Positions 6,647 through 41,526 of a DNA stretch of 43,422 nucleotides are shown piece by piece. The translations under genes were made by a program, and so were the position numbers. The notes beneath the pieces were generated by a model. The model made no database searches. It had not been told where the DNA came from and saw only the letters and a list, made by a program, of their open reading frames with translations. Origin of the DNA: an uncultured Bacteroidia bacterium (GTDB lineage Bacteria; Bacteroidota; Bacteroidia; Bacteroidales; Prolixibacteraceae); NCBI GenBank assembly GCA_903850335.1, contig CAINLJ010000189.1, forward strand, positions 1 through 43,422. The letters are read 5' to 3'. How positions within the stretch are numbered: the stretch's first letter is position 1; every line of letters starts with the position of its first letter.

Positions 6647-7450
6647 TCAGGAAATCTGCCTTCTAAGAAACCTCATGAGGGCACTTAAAACCAAATCATA
6701 CTCCTCCATGAAACCCAAATGGCCTGAATGATCTAACAGAAGTACCTCCGCCGAAGGGATCAGGACGGAATCAGCTAACTGACTTTCAAAACCGTAGACT
6801 TTGTCATGTTTGCCGATAATAATCAGAACAGGATATCCTGCTTCTTTCAGATTACCGAGATAATTATTCCTCTTATTCATTGCTTCGATCGAACGCAGAG
6901 CGCCAGGAAGGGTTACCTCGCTGGCAGCCTTATTCAGAAGGATAATTTCTTCAACCATATTACCGTCATTTCCCGGGGCAAAATTTGAAGGAATTGTAAC
7001 TTGTAACAGCAGATCTTTTTTCCCGCTAATAAGTAGTTTTGCCTCCCTGTTTCTTTGCCTTATGCTTTGATCATCAGAATTTTGTACCGGTGAGTGCATC
7101 AAAACAAGAGACGCAGTTTTTTCAGGATACCACGCCGAAAAAGCGAGACCTGCGTACCCACCCATCGAATGACCTATAATTGCAATCTGTTCCTTAACCT
7201 GTATAATTTCAAGAATTTCATTCAAAACTTTGGCAAACAAATCAAAACGATAACCCTCAGGAGGAGGTCCTGATTTCCCGTGGCCTGGAAGGTCAATGCG
7301 GATTACCTTATGATCAACTGATAATTGGCCGGTGAGCCGGTCAAATAAAAATTGACTTCCCCAATAGCTGTGAAGGAGTAATATAGGTGGGCCCTCGCCT
7401 TCAATTTTTACAAATATTTTGAAATCACCTATAATGATAATTTGCTCCAT
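6647..7450 (-). CDS. Alpha/beta-hydrolase fold protein
   Basis: A 267-residue cytosolic hydrolase of the alpha/beta fold. The nucleophile elbow is GHSMGG (Ser95). The acid is probably Asp216 in IIGKHDKVYG and the base His244 in DHSGHLGFME, so the triad is complete. The oxyanion region follows strand 3 (LLHSYWGS). Such proteins include esterases, lactonases and C-C hydrolases; the substrate cannot be named. It is transcribed alone, away from sdhCAB and divergently from the TonB receptor at 7641. A large GC-rich hairpin lies 33 bp upstream of its start. Confidence 0.88.
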   Translation of the reverse strand: MEQIIIIGDFKIFVKIEGEGPPILLLHSYWGSQFLFDRLTGQLSVDHKVIRIDLPGHGKSGPPPEGYRFDLFAKVLNEILEIIQVKEQIAIIGHSMGGYAGLAFSAWYPEKTASLVLMHSPVQNSDDQSIRQRNREAKLLISGKKDLLLQVTIPSNFAPGNDGNMVEEIILLNKAASEVTLPGALRSIEAMNKRNNYLGNLKEAGYPVLIIIGKHDKVYGFESQLADSVLIPSAEVLLLDHSGHLGFMEEYDLVLSALMRFLRRQIS

Positions 7451-7482
7451 CCATTTTCAATATAAAATTATGACTGGTTGAA

Positions 7483-7525
7483 GTGACCGGGTGGCTGTTC
7501 ATGTTCTGGACAGCCACCCGGTCAC
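7483..7525. repeat. 16-bp perfect inverted repeat in a divergent promoter region
   Basis: The arms 7483-7498 and 7510-7525 (core gaccgggtggctgt) are exact reverse complements with an 11-nt centre, and they are far more GC-rich than the surroundings. No T-run follows on either strand, so it is not a normal terminator. It lies between the divergent starts at 7450 (minus) and 7641 (plus), 33 bp from the former. Confidence 0.75.
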
Positions 7526-7640
7526 TCAATTCAATCGAAAGTCTCCTTTAACATTAACAATCTGTAAAGTTATAGACAAATAAAAAACTTTTTGTGTTCA
7601 GATTTCGTTAATTTGCAACGAAAATACCTAAATTAATTCC

Positions 7641-10022
7641 ATGAAGTACCAGATATTATTCATATTAGTTTTATTTGCCTCCTTCACAAGCCGGGGGGAA
7701 GGCTCGGTAAAAGGAAGGGTTTATAATTCAAAGAACAACGAACCTGTTTCATTTGCAACAGTTTCAATTGCAGAGACAACAAAAGGCACACAAACAGACG
7801 ATAAGGGTAATTTTACCATTGAAAATCCTGAGCCCGGATTTTATAAGCTAAAGGTTACGGCCATAGGTTACAAGACCTATGTATCAGAATCGTTTAGAAT
7901 AACAATGGCCACCGGAGCCAATATCCTTGTCCCTCTCGAGGAAGAAAATATTAAGCTCAACGAAGTTGTCGTAAGACCTTCCTATTTTAGAAAGAGAGAG
8001 GAGAGCCCTGTTTCCTTGCGTACCATTGGGGTCGACGAAATAGAGAAGAATCCGGGTGGTAACCGCGACATTTCGAAAGTCATTCAATCTTATCCCGGGG
8101 TAGCATCTACTGCAGCATATCGTAATGATATTATAGTCAGAGGAGGTGGTCCAAGTGAAAACAGGTTTTATATCGATGGTGTAGAGATCCCAAATCTGAA
8201 CCATTTTGCTACTCAGGGTGCTTCCGGTGGACCTGTCGGGATTATCAATGTTGATTTTATTCGTGAAGTAAATTTCTATTCGGGTGCATTCCCTGCTTCA
8301 CGGGGAAATGCGATGAGTTCAGTGCTGGAGTTTAACCAGCGTGAGGCCAGCGAGAAGATAAAATTCAGAGGAACAGTGGGTGCATCTGATCTGGCAGCTG
8401 CAATTGAGGGTCCACTTTCAAAGAAGACTACATTTATGGCCTCAGTACGCCGCTCTTACCTGCAGTTTCTTTTTCAGGCAATAGGTCTCCCCTTCCTGCC
8501 GACCTATAATGATTTCCAGTTTAAGGTAAAAACAAAAATAAATGCAAAAACTGAACTTTCATTTATTGGTCTTGGGGCTTTGGATAAATCAGTGCTGAAC
8601 AAAAGTGCAAATAAAACGGAGCAGCAGCGATACATTTTAGGTTATCTTCCCGAGGACAACCAATGGAACTATACACTAGGCGTTGTTTTAAAGCATTTTA
8701 ATCCAAACGGAAATGATACCTATGTGTTGAGTCAAAATAAATTGAACAATGCTTCAATAAAATATCAGGACAATATTAACCAGCCACAGCAATTGATTCT
8801 GGATTATAATTCGTACGAGAAAGAGACCAAATTCAGATACGAGCATAATTACCAGTCGGTTTCTGCCTTCAAACTTAATTATGGCGTTGACCTGCAATAT
8901 GCCAGTTACTTCAACAGGAATTATCAAAAAGTCTGGCTGAATAACGGGCCGGTTACGCTTAATAATAAATCTAGTCTCGAGTTTGCCAAATATGCGGTTT
9001 TCGGGCAACTAAGCCATTCGTTTATTGATCGGCTACTGGACGTTTCTTTTGGTTTGAGGGCAGACGGAAACAGCTATTCGGATAATATGTCAAATCCTTT
9101 AAACCATTTGTCACCAAGACTATCTGCCAGTCTGAGGTTAAGTCCGGGCACATCGCTTAATTTTAATGCCGGTCAATTTGCCCAACTTCCTTCCTATACA
9201 ACACTGGGATACCGTGACCATACCAATGAGCTTGTAAATAAGAATAACGGATTAACGTATATCCAGGCAAATCATCTGGTTGCAGGAATTGAGTTCCGTC
9301 CGTCGGACAATTCTCAGGTGACGGTTGAAGGTTTTTACAAGAGATATACTCATTATCCTTTCTCGGTTAACGACTCCGTGTCGCTGGCCAGCAAGGGGGG
9401 TGCCGACTTTGGTGTCTATGGAGCAGAGGCCGTGACACCAATCAGTAAAGGCAATGCTTATGGATTTGAGCTTATGGGCCGTATAAAAAAATACAAGAAG
9501 CTTAACGGAATAATTACATATACTTTTGTCCGGAGCGAGTTTACCGATAATAAGGGGGTATACATCCCATCATCCTGGGACAACCGTCACCTCTTAACTG
9601 TAACTGCAACAAAGAATTTCAGGAGGAATTGGGATTTGGGTTTGAGATGGAGGTATATTGGCGGCGCACCTTACACACCCTGGGATGTCAACAGATCTTC
9701 GATCAAATCCGCCTGGGATGCGCAAGGGATTGGTTATCTGGATTACAGCAAATTTAACAAGGCGCGTTTAAATGCCTTTCACCAGCTTGATTTAAGGGTT
9801 GACAAATCATGGTATTACAATAAATGGTCCCTGATGCTTTATTTTGATGTTCAGAATGCCTACAATTTCAAGGCCGATCAGCCTGATTACCTCATACGGG
9901 TAGAGGACACTGCAGGAAATCCGGTGACAGATCCGAATGATTCCGGCAGATATCTGTTGAAAACGATAAAGAGTGCCGGTGGAACGGTGCTTCCTACTAT
10001 TGGGATTATGGTGGAATTTTGA
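7641..10022 (+). CDS. TonB-dependent outer membrane receptor with carboxypeptidase-regulatory-like domain
   Basis: A 793-residue outer membrane protein. Residues 1-19 are a signal peptide. Residues about 22-95 are a carboxypeptidase-regulatory-like beta-sandwich (GRVYNSKNNEPVSFATVSI ... DDKGNFTIENPEPGFYKLKV). A plug domain follows (about 110-225; IIVRGGGPSENRFYIDGVEI). The remainder is a 22-strand-type barrel ending in a terminal aromatic (GIMVEF), the usual signal for outer-membrane insertion. It is shorter than SusC (about 1000 residues), lacks an STN domain and has no SusD partner, so it is not the PUL transporter; the ligand is unknown. An octamer repeat array starts at its stop codon. 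Confidence 0.9.
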   Translation: MKYQILFILVLFASFTSRGEGSVKGRVYNSKNNEPVSFATVSIAETTKGTQTDDKGNFTIENPEPGFYKLKVTAIGYKTYVSESFRITMATGANILVPLEEENIKLNEVVVRPSYFRKREESPVSLRTIGVDEIEKNPGGNRDISKVIQSYPGVASTAAYRNDIIVRGGGPSENRFYIDGVEIPNLNHFATQGASGGPVGIINVDFIREVNFYSGAFPASRGNAMSSVLEFNQREASEKIKFRGTVGASDLAAAIEGPLSKKTTFMASVRRSYLQFLFQAIGLPFLPTYNDFQFKVKTKINAKTELSFIGLGALDKSVLNKSANKTEQQRYILGYLPEDNQWNYTLGVVLKHFNPNGNDTYVLSQNKLNNASIKYQDNINQPQQLILDYNSYEKETKFRYEHNYQSVSAFKLNYGVDLQYASYFNRNYQKVWLNNGPVTLNNKSSLEFAKYAVFGQLSHSFIDRLLDVSFGLRADGNSYSDNMSNPLNHLSPRLSASLRLSPGTSLNFNAGQFAQLPSYTTLGYRDHTNELVNKNNGLTYIQANHLVAGIEFRPSDNSQVTVEGFYKRYTHYPFSVNDSVSLASKGGADFGVYGAEAVTPISKGNAYGFELMGRIKKYKKLNGIITYTFVRSEFTDNKGVYIPSSWDNRHLLTVTATKNFRRNWDLGLRWRYIGGAPYTPWDVNRSSIKSAWDAQGIGYLDYSKFNKARLNAFHQLDLRVDKSWYYNKWSLMLYFDVQNAYNFKADQPDYLIRVEDTAGNPVTDPNDSGRYLLKTIKSAGGTVLPTIGIMVEF

Positions 10023-34038: not shown

Positions 34039-34416
34039 TCAATCGTACAGGTACTTTGTATCCAGAAAACCAAGTATTTTTTTATCCAGAGTCCATAGAA
34101 GCGAGTCTGTTTCGATTGTCGCAACTATAAGGCTCGCGTCAATGAGCCCGATTCCTCTTGATAACAATCTGTGATTAAATGAATATTCCCCTGCCTTTTC
34201 AAACAAATGAGGAATCTCAATTCTGGGAACATAACGGATGTGGTTTATTAAAAAATTCAGTTCTGTTTGATTTAATGCCCCCTGTAAAATTTCGCCAATT
34301 ACCGGATCAATAATCTTAACACTTAGAATCTCCAAATAAGCCTGAACTTCTTTATAATAAGGATCATTCCTTTGAAAAAATTCAAACCAAACTGAGGAGT
34401 CGACTAATATATCCAT
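34039..34416 (-). CDS. vapC: PIN-domain toxin, VapC type
   Basis: A 125-residue PIN-domain ribonuclease. The conserved acidic residues are all visible: Asp6 (MDILVDSSVW), Glu42 (VIGEILQG), Asp93 (GLIDASLIVAT) and Asp111 (LWTLDKKIL), enough for the metal-dependent active site. Length is normal. The start codon overlaps the antitoxin stop (TAATG, sharing one base), so the genes are translationally coupled. VapC toxins cleave specific tRNAs or rRNA. The gene appears intact and lies convergent with the broken GH42-like gene. Confidence 0.92.
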   Translation of the reverse strand: MDILVDSSVWFEFFQRNDPYYKEVQAYLEILSVKIIDPVIGEILQGALNQTELNFLINHIRYVPRIEIPHLFEKAGEYSFNHRLLSRGIGLIDASLIVATIETDSLLWTLDKKILGFLDTKYLYD

Positions 34417-34622
34417 TACAACCTGTTTATATTCCTGATTTCTTTGGCCGTATACTTAAACTGTAAGGGACTTTTATCGAGCGTTTTTCCTAATGACTTT
34501 AAATTTTCAAGGGCAATGTATGATTTCAGCGCAATTATCATTGCCTCAGTGATGTTTTTTGCATTTGACAAGACCTGAGCTTCATGAACAAGTTCATCAG
34601 GTATTATGGCAGTTACTTTCAT
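34416..34622 (-). CDS. vapB: VapB-type antitoxin
   Basis: A 68-residue protein starting at ATG 34622 (MKVTAIIPDELVHEAQVLSN). The longer frame from 34673 adds 17 residues that lie over the promoter and operator, so it is unlikely to be the true start. The N-terminal ribbon-helix-helix-like part (beta strand KVTAIIP, then two helices) should bind DNA, and the C-terminal ~30 residues should wrap the toxin. It precedes vapC with a one-base overlap. Its promoter contains an 8-bp inverted repeat well placed for self-repression. Confidence 0.85.
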   Translation of the reverse strand: MKVTAIIPDELVHEAQVLSNAKNITEAMIIALKSYIALENLKSLGKTLDKSPLQFKYTAKEIRNINRL

Positions 34623-34643
34623 TTTTGAAATTTTAATTTCACA

Positions 34644-34674
34644 CAAATATACGATAAGGAATCGTATAATCAAA
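34644..34674 (-). promoter_or_regulatory. Canonical promoter of vapBC with internal operator
   Basis: On the minus strand, TTTG (34671-34674) lies exactly 19 nt from TATATTTG (34644-34651): a complete Bacteroidota housekeeping promoter with consensus spacing. Transcription would begin near 34637, 15 nt before vapB. The inverted repeat TATACGAT-N5-ATCGTATA (34648-34655, 34661-34668) fills the spacer and overlaps the -7 element, as expected for VapBC autorepression. Confidence 0.8.
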
Positions 34675-37587: not shown

Positions 37588-37718
37588 ATATTTTTTTGAG
37601 ATTTAAGTTTCCCCGCTCCCGATGACCCGGGGGCAAGAAATAATTGCCTCCCTTACGCCGTGCACAGACTGAAATCTAACAGATCCAAAGAAAAACAACC
37701 AAATAAAATCCATTGGCC

Positions 37719-40193
37719 ATGAAGATTATTTTGCACTTTTTGCTTTATATGCTCCTAACTACTCTGGTCTGTGAGGCTCAGTCGAAAACAGCTGAAAAAT
37801 TACCGGCAATACAATCCTCATTTATCTGGTCAACATCCGGATCATCGGGAAAGCAGGAATGGGTAGCGTTCCGCAAGAGTTTTAATCTCGATGAGACATC
37901 CCGGCCCGCGACATTAAAATTGTTTGCTGATTCGCGTTATATGCTGTGGATCAACGGACAATATGTATTAAGAGGACCGTGCAGGTTTAATCCCAGGAGA
38001 CCAGAGTTTGATGTTGTTGACGTTCGTAAATTTTTGAAGAAGGGGAAAAATACAATTAGTGTTTTGGCGCATAATTATGGCAATCTGGTCAATGGACATA
38101 TTATGAAGCATGTTCCCGGTTTAACATCCAAATTGGAAATTGGAGACAAACAGATTTTGCGAACTGATGCCACCTGGCGTTGTAGCAATAAAACCCGGTA
38201 CCAGTTATCGCCCGAATCCTGGAATACTGTTCCGGATGTAATCGATGCACGGGTTGATAATTGCGAATGGATCTTAACTGATTTTGACGATTCTGCATGG
38301 CCGTTTGCAATGCCTGTCAACGGACAACAGTGGGGAAAAATGTTCCCAAGAGCTTTACCACTTGCCAGAGAAACCGAGCTCAGTGCACTCAGGTTATTAC
38401 CTTCAGGAAAACTTTTGAATGCCTCTTTACCGATAGAACTTAATGCCGGGGATACAATTCTTGTAGATTTTGGCAGGATGGCAATGGCCTACACTGCCAT
38501 GGAGCTTGATTGTTCCGAAGGGAGTAACCTCACAATGAAATATGCTCTCCGCTATAAAAACGGCCAGCCGGGAGAGATGTATGGAGATGGTAACCGATAT
38601 ACTGCCAGAGAAGGTCATCAAAGTTTTATGACTACCGATCAGTGGGGAAGTCATTATATGCGGGTTAAATGTGAGACAGGTCATGTGAAGATAGAGTCAA
38701 TTAAGATTGTTGACCGTAGTTATCCTTTCGACCGGATAGGGAAATTCAGTTGCAATGATGAGATTTTGACCAAACTTTGGGAAATGGCTCAAAATACGAT
38801 TGAAGTGACAAGTGATGATGGCTATGGTTCAGATGCGCGTGAAAGGAACGAGTGGATACAGGACGCCGGAAAGGCGAGTTTTTCGACAACCCGTGTCGGA
38901 TCTTCAGGACCTGGCAAAGATGGGAAACCGGTATACTCAGATCCACGTCTGCTTAAAAATATGTTACGTCATTCTTCACTCTGCCAGTTACCTGACGGCC
39001 AACTCCCTGCTACATTTCCTACGGATCGTGGACCGGAAGATTGTCATTATATCATCGAAGATTATTCATGTCAGTGGTTTGAAGGACTAAAGACATACTA
39101 TGATGTCACTGGTGATAAGGAATTTGTCCGTGAGATGTGGCTCACTCTGGTTGCCCAGATTAACTGGTTTCTGAGCCACCGGACCAAGCGGGGTCTCCTC
39201 CTTGCCCGGGAATATACCTCGTTCGATAATCCATTCGCTTACACAACGTGTGAAGGAGCAACAATAAACGCCTTCTTTTATGAGGCAATAAAGGCTTCAG
39301 AAGAACTTGCCCGTGTACTAGGTGAGACCAAAAAATCTGTAGAATTTAAACTGGCGGCTGACGAGCTAAAAACCGCATACAATAAACAGTTCTGGAATGA
39401 AAAAGAACAGGTTTACAACTCAGCAATTTTAAACGACAAAGTTTACGCGCCAACTGTTCATGCACAATTAATTGCGCTGCATTACGACCTGGTTCCCAAA
39501 ACACAGAAGGCTTCTGTGCAGAAATGGTTTCACGAAAACTATCGAAATCCGGGGATGCGGCACTATTGTTCGAATAGTGAATATGAGAAAATGGTAAATC
39601 AAAAATCGGGTATTGATATGCCTGTCGTTTATTATTGGGTCTTGCACCAGCTATATAACCTGGATACAGATGAGGTTGATCATGAGGCAATTCAGGAGAT
39701 AAGGCGCAGGTGGTCTTCAATGGTTAAATTTCAAGAGGATGCGGGGACTCTGTGTGAATCGTTTACGGATGAAAAGGGTGAAGGTGCCACAGAGTCATGT
39801 CATAATTATGGTGCAGTACCCGCGTATTTTCTGAGTTCGTATGTTCTGGGGATTAGGATGGATGGCCCGGTTTGGAATAAACAGTTAATCATTGAGCCCC
39901 GCCTGGGAGATCTCAAGTTTGCGGAAGGCACTGTTGTAACGGCTCTCGGAGCAGTACCTGTATCCTGGAATATTCGTGATAACGGTAAATCGTTGTCTTA
40001 TAACTTTATAATCCCTAAAGGCATTCAAGCCACGGTCAGATTGCCCAGGCTGTCAGACAAACAATCGCTTATAATGAACGGAGAGTTTCTCATAAAGAAT
40101 GGAGTTCCTCATAAAGACGTTAAGGAAGAAGGACGGTGGATTGTTATCAGAAGTGTCTCAGGCACATGCTCAGGAAAGCTGAGTGGCATTTAA
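37719..40193 (+). CDS. GH78 alpha-L-rhamnosidase-like protein
   Basis: About 824 residues from ATG 37719 (signal peptide ending LVCEAQ); a TTG lies two codons earlier. The N-terminal beta-sandwich (FIWSTSGSSGKQEWVAFRKSF ... DSRYMLWINGQYVLRGPCRFNP) precedes the (alpha/alpha)6 barrel. The family's acidic cluster appears as SDARERNEWIQDAG (Asp372, Glu375, Glu378, Asp382). The C-terminal Bac_rhamnosid_C-like domain spans about 725-800. It should release terminal alpha-L-rhamnose or a related deoxy sugar. It follows the GH2 gene and ends 69 bp before a large palindrome that can form its terminator. Confidence 0.85.
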   Translation: MKIILHFLLYMLLTTLVCEAQSKTAEKLPAIQSSFIWSTSGSSGKQEWVAFRKSFNLDETSRPATLKLFADSRYMLWINGQYVLRGPCRFNPRRPEFDVVDVRKFLKKGKNTISVLAHNYGNLVNGHIMKHVPGLTSKLEIGDKQILRTDATWRCSNKTRYQLSPESWNTVPDVIDARVDNCEWILTDFDDSAWPFAMPVNGQQWGKMFPRALPLARETELSALRLLPSGKLLNASLPIELNAGDTILVDFGRMAMAYTAMELDCSEGSNLTMKYALRYKNGQPGEMYGDGNRYTAREGHQSFMTTDQWGSHYMRVKCETGHVKIESIKIVDRSYPFDRIGKFSCNDEILTKLWEMAQNTIEVTSDDGYGSDARERNEWIQDAGKASFSTTRVGSSGPGKDGKPVYSDPRLLKNMLRHSSLCQLPDGQLPATFPTDRGPEDCHYIIEDYSCQWFEGLKTYYDVTGDKEFVREMWLTLVAQINWFLSHRTKRGLLLAREYTSFDNPFAYTTCEGATINAFFYEAIKASEELARVLGETKKSVEFKLAADELKTAYNKQFWNEKEQVYNSAILNDKVYAPTVHAQLIALHYDLVPKTQKASVQKWFHENYRNPGMRHYCSNSEYEKMVNQKSGIDMPVVYYWVLHQLYNLDTDEVDHEAIQEIRRRWSSMVKFQEDAGTLCESFTDEKGEGATESCHNYGAVPAYFLSSYVLGIRMDGPVWNKQLIIEPRLGDLKFAEGTVVTALGAVPVSWNIRDNGKSLSYNFIIPKGIQATVRLPRLSDKQSLIMNGEFLIKNGVPHKDVKEEGRWIVIRSVSGTCSGKLSGI

Positions 40194-40261
40194 CCAAAGC
40201 TTAATGAGAAACCAGTAATAACTTTGATAATGTGCTCTGTTTAGTGTCCTGAAATTAAAAA

Positions 40262-40331
40262 ACAAAAGTAAATAAAAAATGTCGATTAAAATCGACATTT
40301 TTTATTTACTTTTGTCGTATTAAATCGACAT
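40262..40331 (+). promoter_or_regulatory. 26-bp-arm perfect palindrome with promoter of the DUF4143 gene
   Basis: The arms 40262-40287 and 40290-40315 are exact reverse complements around a 2-nt centre. The core GTCGATTAAAATCGAC is followed by T6, so it can act as a terminator for GH78. The right arm contains TACTTTTG (40307-40314), an exact -7 element 22 bp before the ATPase start. By symmetry the left arm carries the same element on the minus strand (40263-40270). A third copy of ATCGACAT lies at 40324-40331, inside the predicted leader. Confidence 0.75.
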
Positions 40332-40335
40332 AAAC

Positions 40336-41526
40336 ATGAATGTTTTATTTGAATTTCAGGAAAACATGTTACGTCCGGTAAAGAATGATTTCCGAAGATA
40401 TTTGCATAGTCAGGTTAACTGGAAACAGCGAATGATTGGGATTAAAGGTCCACGGGGAGCAGGCAAAACCACTCTAATGTTGCAGTATTTTAAGTATGAC
40501 CTCGAGTTGCCTTCTAATGCGCTGTATATCACTGCTGACCATACCTGGTTTTATAATCATTCCATATTTGAAACAGCGAATGACTGGTATAAGCTAGGTG
40601 GGAAAATACTGTTTATAGACGAAGTCCATAAATATCCAAACTGGTCTGTTGAATTAAAAAACATCTATGACGGATTACCGGAAATGAAGGTCATTTTTTC
40701 AGCCTCTTCTGCATTGGATATTTACCGGGGCGAGGCTGATCTGAGCAGGAGGGTTGTGACTTATTTGCTCGCAGGGCTTTCCTTTCGGGAATATTTAATA
40801 TTTACTAACGGGGTTAGATATGAACCATTCAAAATTGAGGAGATCATCAATAACCACAGGAGCCTAAGCCGGATGATCACTGAAGGTTTTCGTCCGCTAC
40901 CCGCATTCCGAAAATATTTACAAACAGGCTATTTGCCAATTATTGCTGAAGGGGAAGATACATATCTAATTAAATTGAACCAGGTGATCAATACTATTGT
41001 GGATGCCGATCTGGCTTATATCGTTTCATATAATTCAGGTACGGCAATTAAGGTTAAAAAATTACTCGGTGTAATAGCTGAATCAGTCCCCTTTAAACCA
41101 AATATTGCTGCACTTGCAAGGAAACTTGATTTAAGCCGTGACAGTGTTTATCAATATATCTACCAATTACAGGATGCACGGTTGCTGAATACCCTAAGTT
41201 CAGGAGGGAAAGGGGTTTCAACATTACAAAAGCCTGACAAAATATTTTTAGAAAATACCAACCTTGCCTTTGCATTAAGAGGAAAACCAGATATTGGAAG
41301 TATCAGAGAGACATTTGTTTTGAATCAGTTACTCAACGCAGGGTTAAAGGTCAATTCCAGTTTGGAGGGTGACTTTGTGATTGATGGATTAATAATTGAG
41401 GTTGGAGGAAAAGGCAAAAATACATCACAGGTAAAGCACCTTAAGAATTATTTGATTGCTGCTGATGATATTGAAACAGGTGGGGGCAACAAAGTTCCAA
41501 TCTGGTTATTTGGATTTTTATATTAG
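40336..41526 (+). CDS. AAA_14/DUF4143 ATPase (diverged copy)
   Basis: A 396-residue cytosolic protein. Walker A is GPRGAGKTT (38-46), Walker B ILFIDEVH (Asp95, Glu96), then a sensor-like IFSASSALDIYRG. A winged-helix-like segment (NIAALARKLDLSRDSVYQYIYQLQ) and a DUF4143-type end follow. At the nuclease-like site the residues read GDFVIDGLIIEVGGKGK: Asp is kept, but the ExK lysine is shifted or lost, so catalysis there is doubtful. It is transcribed alone from a promoter embedded in a perfect palindrome. Function unknown; the family is multicopy in this genome segment. It appears intact. Confidence 0.85.
   Translation: MNVLFEFQENMLRPVKNDFRRYLHSQVNWKQRMIGIKGPRGAGKTTLMLQYFKYDLELPSNALYITADHTWFYNHSIFETANDWYKLGGKILFIDEVHKYPNWSVELKNIYDGLPEMKVIFSASSALDIYRGEADLSRRVVTYLLAGLSFREYLIFTNGVRYEPFKIEEIINNHRSLSRMITEGFRPLPAFRKYLQTGYLPIIAEGEDTYLIKLNQVINTIVDADLAYIVSYNSGTAIKVKKLLGVIAESVPFKPNIAALARKLDLSRDSVYQYIYQLQDARLLNTLSSGGKGVSTLQKPDKIFLENTNLAFALRGKPDIGSIRETFVLNQLLNAGLKVNSSLEGDFVIDGLIIEVGGKGKNTSQVKHLKNYLIAADDIETGGGNKVPIWLFGFLY

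Follow-up and report, generated by a model that had tools for sequence, protein, structure and literature searches.

Paired dyad operators, one of them inside a long palindrome, probably place a candidate defence ATPase of the Prolixibacteraceae under its own control

The window, that is, the whole stretch of 43,422 nucleotides analysed here, is one entire contig from the 5.5-Mb draft genome (95.6% complete) of an uncultured Bacteroidia bacterium of the Prolixibacteraceae. A glycoside hydrolase (GH78) gene with rhamnosidase-type Pfam hits (37713-40193) flanks one side of a 54-bp palindrome (40262-40315, without strand), and the gene of a 396-residue AAA_14/DUF4143-type ATPase (40336-41526, forward strand) follows on the other. 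The palindrome is exact, as an earlier sequence-only reading had claimed: its 26-nt arms (40262-40287 and 40290-40315) are 100% complementary around a 2-nt AA centre, and none of the other close inverted repeats reported in the window (10 in all; arms of at least 14 nt, distance up to 100) is as long. Further details of that reading hold equally well, namely a TAnnTTTG element in each arm (TACTTTTG at 40307-40314 on the forward strand and its mirror CAAAAGTA at 40263-40270), the GTCGATT/AATCGAC core followed by six T residues, and a third ATCGACAT copy at 40324-40331. Elsewhere in the window, an inverted repeat at 7482-7526 (20-nt arms, 95% complementary) lies between the divergent ORFs 6647-7450 (reverse strand) and 7641-10022 (forward strand) and may be a regulatory site, and a PIN-domain gene (34039-34673, reverse strand) is preceded by a short VapB-like gene, whose VapB score is under its cut-off; the two form a probable VapBC toxin-antitoxin pair.

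The palindrome can be drawn as a hairpin with a T-run on either strand, and the RNA fold of 40262-40335 is stronger than expected by chance (z = -9.8). A scan of the window alone found the combination of hairpin and T-run that is expected of a rho-independent terminator: 4 terminator-like sites were counted in 39900-40700, compared to 0.5 in shuffled sequences, and all 4 fall on the palindrome. When the upstream arm is left out, the 5' half of the first of the two dyads described below (site A) pairs in the RNA with the 3' half of the second (site B). A known RNA family is not indicated, since the 22 Rfam hits at E<=1 are every one under the gathering score, and the 11 among them that are microRNA models are to be expected of a long palindrome. 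A dispersed repeat or MITE was also rejected, the palindrome being single-copy in the draft genome, and the near-palindromic 'PM2' motif of B. thetaiotaomicron, which in the available text is a -10/-30 promoter motif, is not evidently the same thing. The long hairpin is not kept in the orthologues of the ATPase gene, where a comparison of exact arm lengths in 15 of them found arms of at least 10 nt in just 2. Within the wider family the window's palindrome has the longest arms of 208 upstream regions (window included), and arms of at least 18 nt occur in 5 of these 208 as against 0 of 120 control upstreams. In three paralogues (L042, L078 and L082), of which L078 and L082 resemble each other, exact palindromes with 20-22-nt arms are centred 45-47 nt before the ATG, so that long palindromes do recur here ahead of the ATPase gene.

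The forward element at 40307-40314 faces the ATPase gene and corresponds to the -7 element of Bacteroidota promoters, for which the sigma-ABfr consensus comprises TAnnTTTG at -7 and a further element at -33 in the account available to us (PMC7366714). Counting the window, 15 of 16 orthologues have a TAnnTTTG that starts between -34 and -20 from the ATG, compared with only 4 of 120 controls, and it is found in the same place in 40/48 paralogues of set 1, 41/72 members of set 2, 60/72 of set 3 and 7/13 of a distant group (the sets are defined below). The window's element thus resembles the sigma-ABfr promoter in both sequence and conservation, and differs from it in that its TTTG is fused to an operator half-site, running into site B. 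Its mirror at 40263-40270, which would act on the reverse strand, is present in 1 of the 16 orthologues, namely the window itself. By the measure of conservation only the forward promoter is real, so that the divergent promoter and the antisense transcript proposed in the sequence-only reading have no conserved feature behind them.

What is conserved upstream of the orthologues is not the 26-bp arms but a pair of 18-bp dyads of the form TGTCG-n8-CGACA. Candidate operator site A (40280-40297, TGTCGATTAAAATCGACA) spans -56 to -39 from the ATG and forms the core of the palindrome, which is centred on it, and candidate operator site B (40313-40330, TGTCGTATTAAATCGACA) spans -23 to -6, overlaps the promoter and the transcription start expected near 40321 and contains most of the third ATCGACAT copy. 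The two sites, neither of which has a strand, are 33 bp apart from start to start, with five bases between site B and the ATG. Orthologues were sought by comparing the ATPase protein against 140 genomes of the same family as the window's organism, which returned full-length proteins of 69-90% identity in scattered genera together with some broken or partial copies, followed by a gap to paralogues at 49% or less. Two matching dyads were found at p<=0.01 in all 15 set-1 orthologues, some with one degenerate half, and their spacing is 33 bp in 14 of these and 22 bp in the remaining one (L053). This last copy carries two in-frame TGA codons in its ATPase gene, has no TAnnTTTG, and is one of three (L053, L060 and L061) in which the site A dyad is broken by CAACA in place of CGACA. 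One orthologue from a named species, Arcticibacter svalbardensis (L114), is 88% identical to the window's protein. In addition, a 67%-identical orthologue with the dyad pair (L117) occurs in a record whose title names the Beijerinckiaceae, an alphaproteobacterial family, and represents either a transfer or a binning error. The sequence-only reading had counted a lack of conservation of the palindrome before orthologues among the grounds for its refutation, and on this point it stands: the dyad is conserved there, and the long arms are not. What escaped that reading was a further complete 18-bp site (40313-40330), together with the spacing of 32-33 bp and the recurrence of the layout across the family with changing words.

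To assess the breadth of this layout, the last 100 nt of each upstream region were scored for a pair of matching dyads and compared with 100 dinucleotide shuffles; upstream regions of other genes in the same loci served as controls (n=120). The score was designed once set 1 had been seen, and the spacing pattern was likewise first noticed there, for which reason sets 2 and 3 serve as validation. Set 1 comprises, of the matches listed, those with E up to about 7e-99 and a paralogue from the window's own genome, with weaker matches left out and 8 of 71 loci excluded (L002, L068-L071, L075, L084 and L099, which belong to the distant group, are fragments or have an unreliable start). Set 2 holds the best 80 of 563 relatives in named genomes, found by protein only, less 8 (five duplicates of set 1, one short and two without ATG). 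Set 3 was drawn from 346 genomes of the class, with four matches left out (two partial, two among the weakest) and 4 of 89 loci excluded (one duplicate, one short, two without ATG); a further 13 more distant members were counted apart, having been split off by E-value before the test rather than by a tree.

Taken over all sets, a spacing of 32-33 bp for the best dyad pair is seen in 153 of 207 upstreams, compared to 6 of 120 controls and 4% of shuffles. In set 1 this spacing is seen in 14/15 orthologues and 34/48 paralogues, with the same 6/120 controls, and a two-dyad score of p<=0.01 is reached by 17 of the 48 paralogues against 6 of the 120 controls. Among the 21 set-1 paralogues with p<=0.05, 20 have the spacing of 32-33 bp and one that of 64, in contrast to 0 of the 13 controls that pass the same threshold. 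Set 2 has 51/72 upstreams at 32-33 bp and six more at 64-66 (shuffles, 315/7200 at 32-33), and set 3 has 54/72 with seven more at 64-66 (shuffles, 312/7200). When the collection is thinned to less than 50% protein identity, 23 of 38 upstreams still show the spacing. The layout is absent from the distant paralogue group (32-37% identity), where 1/13 lies at 32-33 bp, and a significant dyad pair is lacking (p>0.05) in 27/48 set-1 paralogues, 21/72 members of set 2 and 15/72 of set 3. There is also weak enrichment, both up- and downstream, of a third site at the pitch of the other two. The words of the paralogues differ, with examples such as TGTTTA, TGTTGT, TGTAGT, TTTGTC and TGCCGAT, and because the operator words differ between members, their reader should differ with them.

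The ATPase itself is a plausible reader. The sequence-only reading had named it a DUF4143 ATPase, of which the ATPase part is borne out (AAA_14, E 9e-27), and the DUF4143 domain proper (PF13635) stays below its Pfam gathering cut-off in the window's protein (21.9 vs 28.1 bits), although 52 of 60 A2 members, the window's included, match it at E<=0.01. The AlphaFold2 model is confident (pLDDT 91.8, pTM 0.90), and we read its residues 257-287 (41104-41196, forward strand; helices at 257-263 and 268-280, strand at 284-287 in the model's secondary structure) as a winged helix-turn-helix whose recognition helix occupies residues 268-280 (41137-41175). Arg268 is nearly invariant, being present in 140 of the 144 proteins that have operators, and residue 269 (41140-41142, Asp in the window) co-varies with the operator. 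The C-terminus, furthermore, has conserved D346, E355 and K361, which may form a nuclease site.

The link between residue 269 and the operator word was formulated as a rule on sets 1 and 2 and then tested, as the sole rule, on the fresh set 3. In the strong set from sets 1 and 2, Asn269 goes with C at base 3 of the half-site (14/16 vs 2/25), which is the best of 8613 column-residue-base tests; in a wider set of 54 proteins, residue 216 (Gln with C at base 4) ranks just above 269 (3.7e-7 vs 4.9e-7). For the prospective test, 54 of the 72 set-3 operators were kept (p<=0.10 and spacing), 43 of them after dropping proteins at least 70% identical, and 39 of those were TG-anchored; C at base 3 was found in 21 of the 24 Asn269 proteins compared to 1 of the 15 others (p = 6e-7). 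When the data are pooled, the association (38/45 vs 5/48) is the best of 17328 tests, leaving as exceptions 7 of 45 Asn proteins without C and 5 of 48 others with it, and it is stable to the anchor threshold. Contrasts counted as independent pairs on a tree built without residues 250-292 give 13 pairs for the rule, 0 against and 3 without change beyond the margin (16 pairs). Asp269, the window's residue, is accompanied by C one base further on, the arrangement of TGTCG (11/16 vs 3/77, p 2e-8), and a matched pair of proteins illustrates the Asn rule, with INRNTLLS and TGCTTA in L202 against INRATLLS and TGTTTA in L160.

Clear covariation is confined to the strong TG-anchored set and the fresh set. 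The first scan, on all 63 representatives, was noisy, the permutation maximum for a single column (0.403) exceeding the observed value (0.212). In one partial-Mantel scan, residue windows from 170-173 (up to 0.255) came above the recognition-helix window (0.234), with 376-382 just below. An initial contrast scan on a smaller number of proteins did not place residue 269 in its listed top 14 (6:0, 2 ties); in a second one it shared first place with residue 250. We read the competing columns as a probable reflection of relatedness, which still leaks into such tests. Taken with the prospective test, covariation with the recognition helix strongly supports one suggestion of the sequence-only reading, that ATCGACAT is a candidate binding site of the ATPase itself.

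The strict word TGTCGWN7CGACA occurs in the window's own genome at sites A and B only, and the looser TGTCGN8CGACA is no commoner in 13 genomes with an orthologue (3-10 each) than in 12 without (0-10). Since no regulon emerged either in the own genome or from this comparison, the sites seem to serve the ATPase gene alone. Compared in pairs, orthologues lose DNA similarity within 16 nt of the stop codon in 88 of 91 cases and, at the other end, 127 to 23 nt before the ATG in 90 of 91, and the 15 orthologue neighbourhoods are, by eye, of about ten different kinds. Moreover, the related genome G041 is without the unit at the locus where G071 carries it; it does not offer a clean empty site, as about 585 bases there have no match and no exact junction can be drawn. 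The limits of similarity, the varied neighbourhoods, the absence from G041 and broken copies such as L053 suggest that the gene and its operators move and degenerate as one. The G071 copy has, ahead of its operators, a 200-bp stretch (L056, 9059-9257) that was rejected as part of the unit, because it is a MITE-like dispersed repeat, present in G071 in several near-identical copies and in related form across many genomes within the genus. Some ATPase copies adjoin relaxase- or ArdC-like genes (by eye), and a stretch around TTGTAATnnATTGATaATCA, 150 nt or less after the ATPase stop, is shared in differing contexts (by eye) by L029, L030 and L031, and more weakly by L035 and L036; it is possibly an element end or attachment site.

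The most convincing explanation, in which we have considerable confidence, is that the palindrome contains one of two dyad operators of an ATPase that binds its own promoter region. As in an autoregulator, a dyad overlaps the gene's own promoter and its word follows the recognition helix of the gene's own product, and binding of the ATPase to its promoter is, on these comparisons, very probable. Other readings of the same element can be weighed against this one. The palindrome might act as RNA, as a bidirectional terminator or as a leader hairpin (attenuator) between the GH78 and ATPase genes, with which the strong hairpin, the T-runs on both sides and the alternative pairing of the two sites would agree. 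This we hold to be very unlikely, since the long arms are rare both in the family and in the orthologues, the site A dyads of three orthologues are broken, and RNA pairing predicts neither the word shared by sites A and B, nor their spacing of 32-33 bp, nor the link to residue 269. Dyads at a promoter are the usual sites of regulators, so that an unlinked protein might bind them with the ATPase merely as its target; such a regulator would have to contend with words that track the ATPase's own helix, that mostly differ between copies residing in one genome and that are no commoner in genomes with an orthologue, which makes it a most improbable candidate. Among the co-resident pairs, an identical 4-base word is shared by 1 of 33, compared to 227 of 4062 random pairs.

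The same low sharing bears on the idea that operator words define immunity groups, in which a resident ATPase would silence or cut an incoming cassette or element bearing its own word, much as phage repressors act on related phages. If this were true, the family would be a set of mobile defence genes that mark themselves, are blind to one another and diversify their recognition code under that pressure. Avoidance of shared words within one genome finds no support in the 33 co-resident pairs, whose mean word similarity is, if anything, higher than that of random pairs (0.396 vs 0.353), and because random pairs differ in word nearly as often as co-resident ones, the idea is not favoured and appears highly improbable. 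That the dyads serve chiefly as a site of action, for a nuclease, for loading or for cassette movement, with regulation secondary, would be in keeping with orthologue homology that ends near the stop codon and shortly before the ATG, with the absence of the unit from G041, with the putative nuclease residues and with the relaxase- or ArdC-like neighbours; we regard it as distinctly unlikely, because no matching site was seen 3' of the gene (by eye) and the dyads lie exactly on the promoter. The position of the dyads also bears on the direction of control. AAA+ proteins can act as activators, and the weakly enriched third site at the same pitch would fit a protein that binds to activate its own gene. 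Site B, however, lies over the TTTG of the promoter and the expected start, and site A over the region of the -33 element, positions that are typical of repression, so that activation is unlikely and self-repression, as judged from this geometry, is likely.

Under autoregulation, one dimer would occupy each dyad, and as the dyads are three helical turns apart, both dimers would sit on the same face of the DNA and could bind cooperatively. Bound dimers would cover the promoter and the start region and keep the ATPase gene off, and release might follow when the protein is titrated, when its nucleotide state changes, or otherwise. The exact 26-bp arms would then be a local over-extension of site A, perhaps arising from template-switch repair and perhaps serving as a terminator too. 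The proposal that a single 54-bp element combines terminator, operator and divergent promoter accordingly applies mostly to the window's copy in particular: a terminator is possible there, and the long arms and the backward promoter are not conserved.

The real find is an ATPase that appears to read its own word, in a family that is very common and is listed as candidate virus defence. A readable protein-DNA code together with a recurring promoter layout offers a predicted target for each gene and opens a direct route to what the family does, and the conserved arrangement suggests that this candidate for a defence role comes with an off switch of its own. In the open-licence literature, judged largely by title, we found no description of the function of this ATPase family, nor of operators or autoregulation for the DUF4143/AAA_14/COG1373/PDC-S01 family.

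Among proteins of known structure, the best PDB match by Foldseek is Orc1/Cdc6 (2qby, E 9.7e-8), with a TM-score of just 0.33 and 15% identity. Orc1/Cdc6 initiators place an AAA+ domain and a winged helix on origin DNA, a layout that the window's ATPase may resemble; the latter has an additional nuclease-like C-terminus, and its candidate sites lie at a promoter. The protein also matches seven PADLOC models of PDC-S01, the best at E 3.2e-24 over residues 29-350, and is a defence candidate by this profile match. PDC-S01 is a PADLOC candidate defence system (PMC12988326, PMC13356809); in the text available, S01 is an ATPase fused to a PD-(D/E)-X-K member, was identified by 'guilt by embedding', an approach most of whose candidates still await validation, and ranks as the fourth most common defence across all prokaryotes, with 9986 systems in Archaea and 29494 in Bacteria (PMC12988326). 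In contrast to what is proposed here, the available portions of these two sources make no mention of regulation or of an operator for it. The closest parallel for the regulation is provided by local autoregulators of the LacI family, which have a recognition code and an operator beside their own gene and in which, as far as the accessible text goes, a few amino acids co-vary with a few binding-site bases across the family (Camas et al. 2010, PMC2978694). The window's ATPase, in which no ligand-binding domain was found, differs from these autoregulators in that the sites of its family are paired at 32-33 bp and in that it would read DNA through a domain set inside an AAA+ ATPase with a nuclease-like C-terminus.
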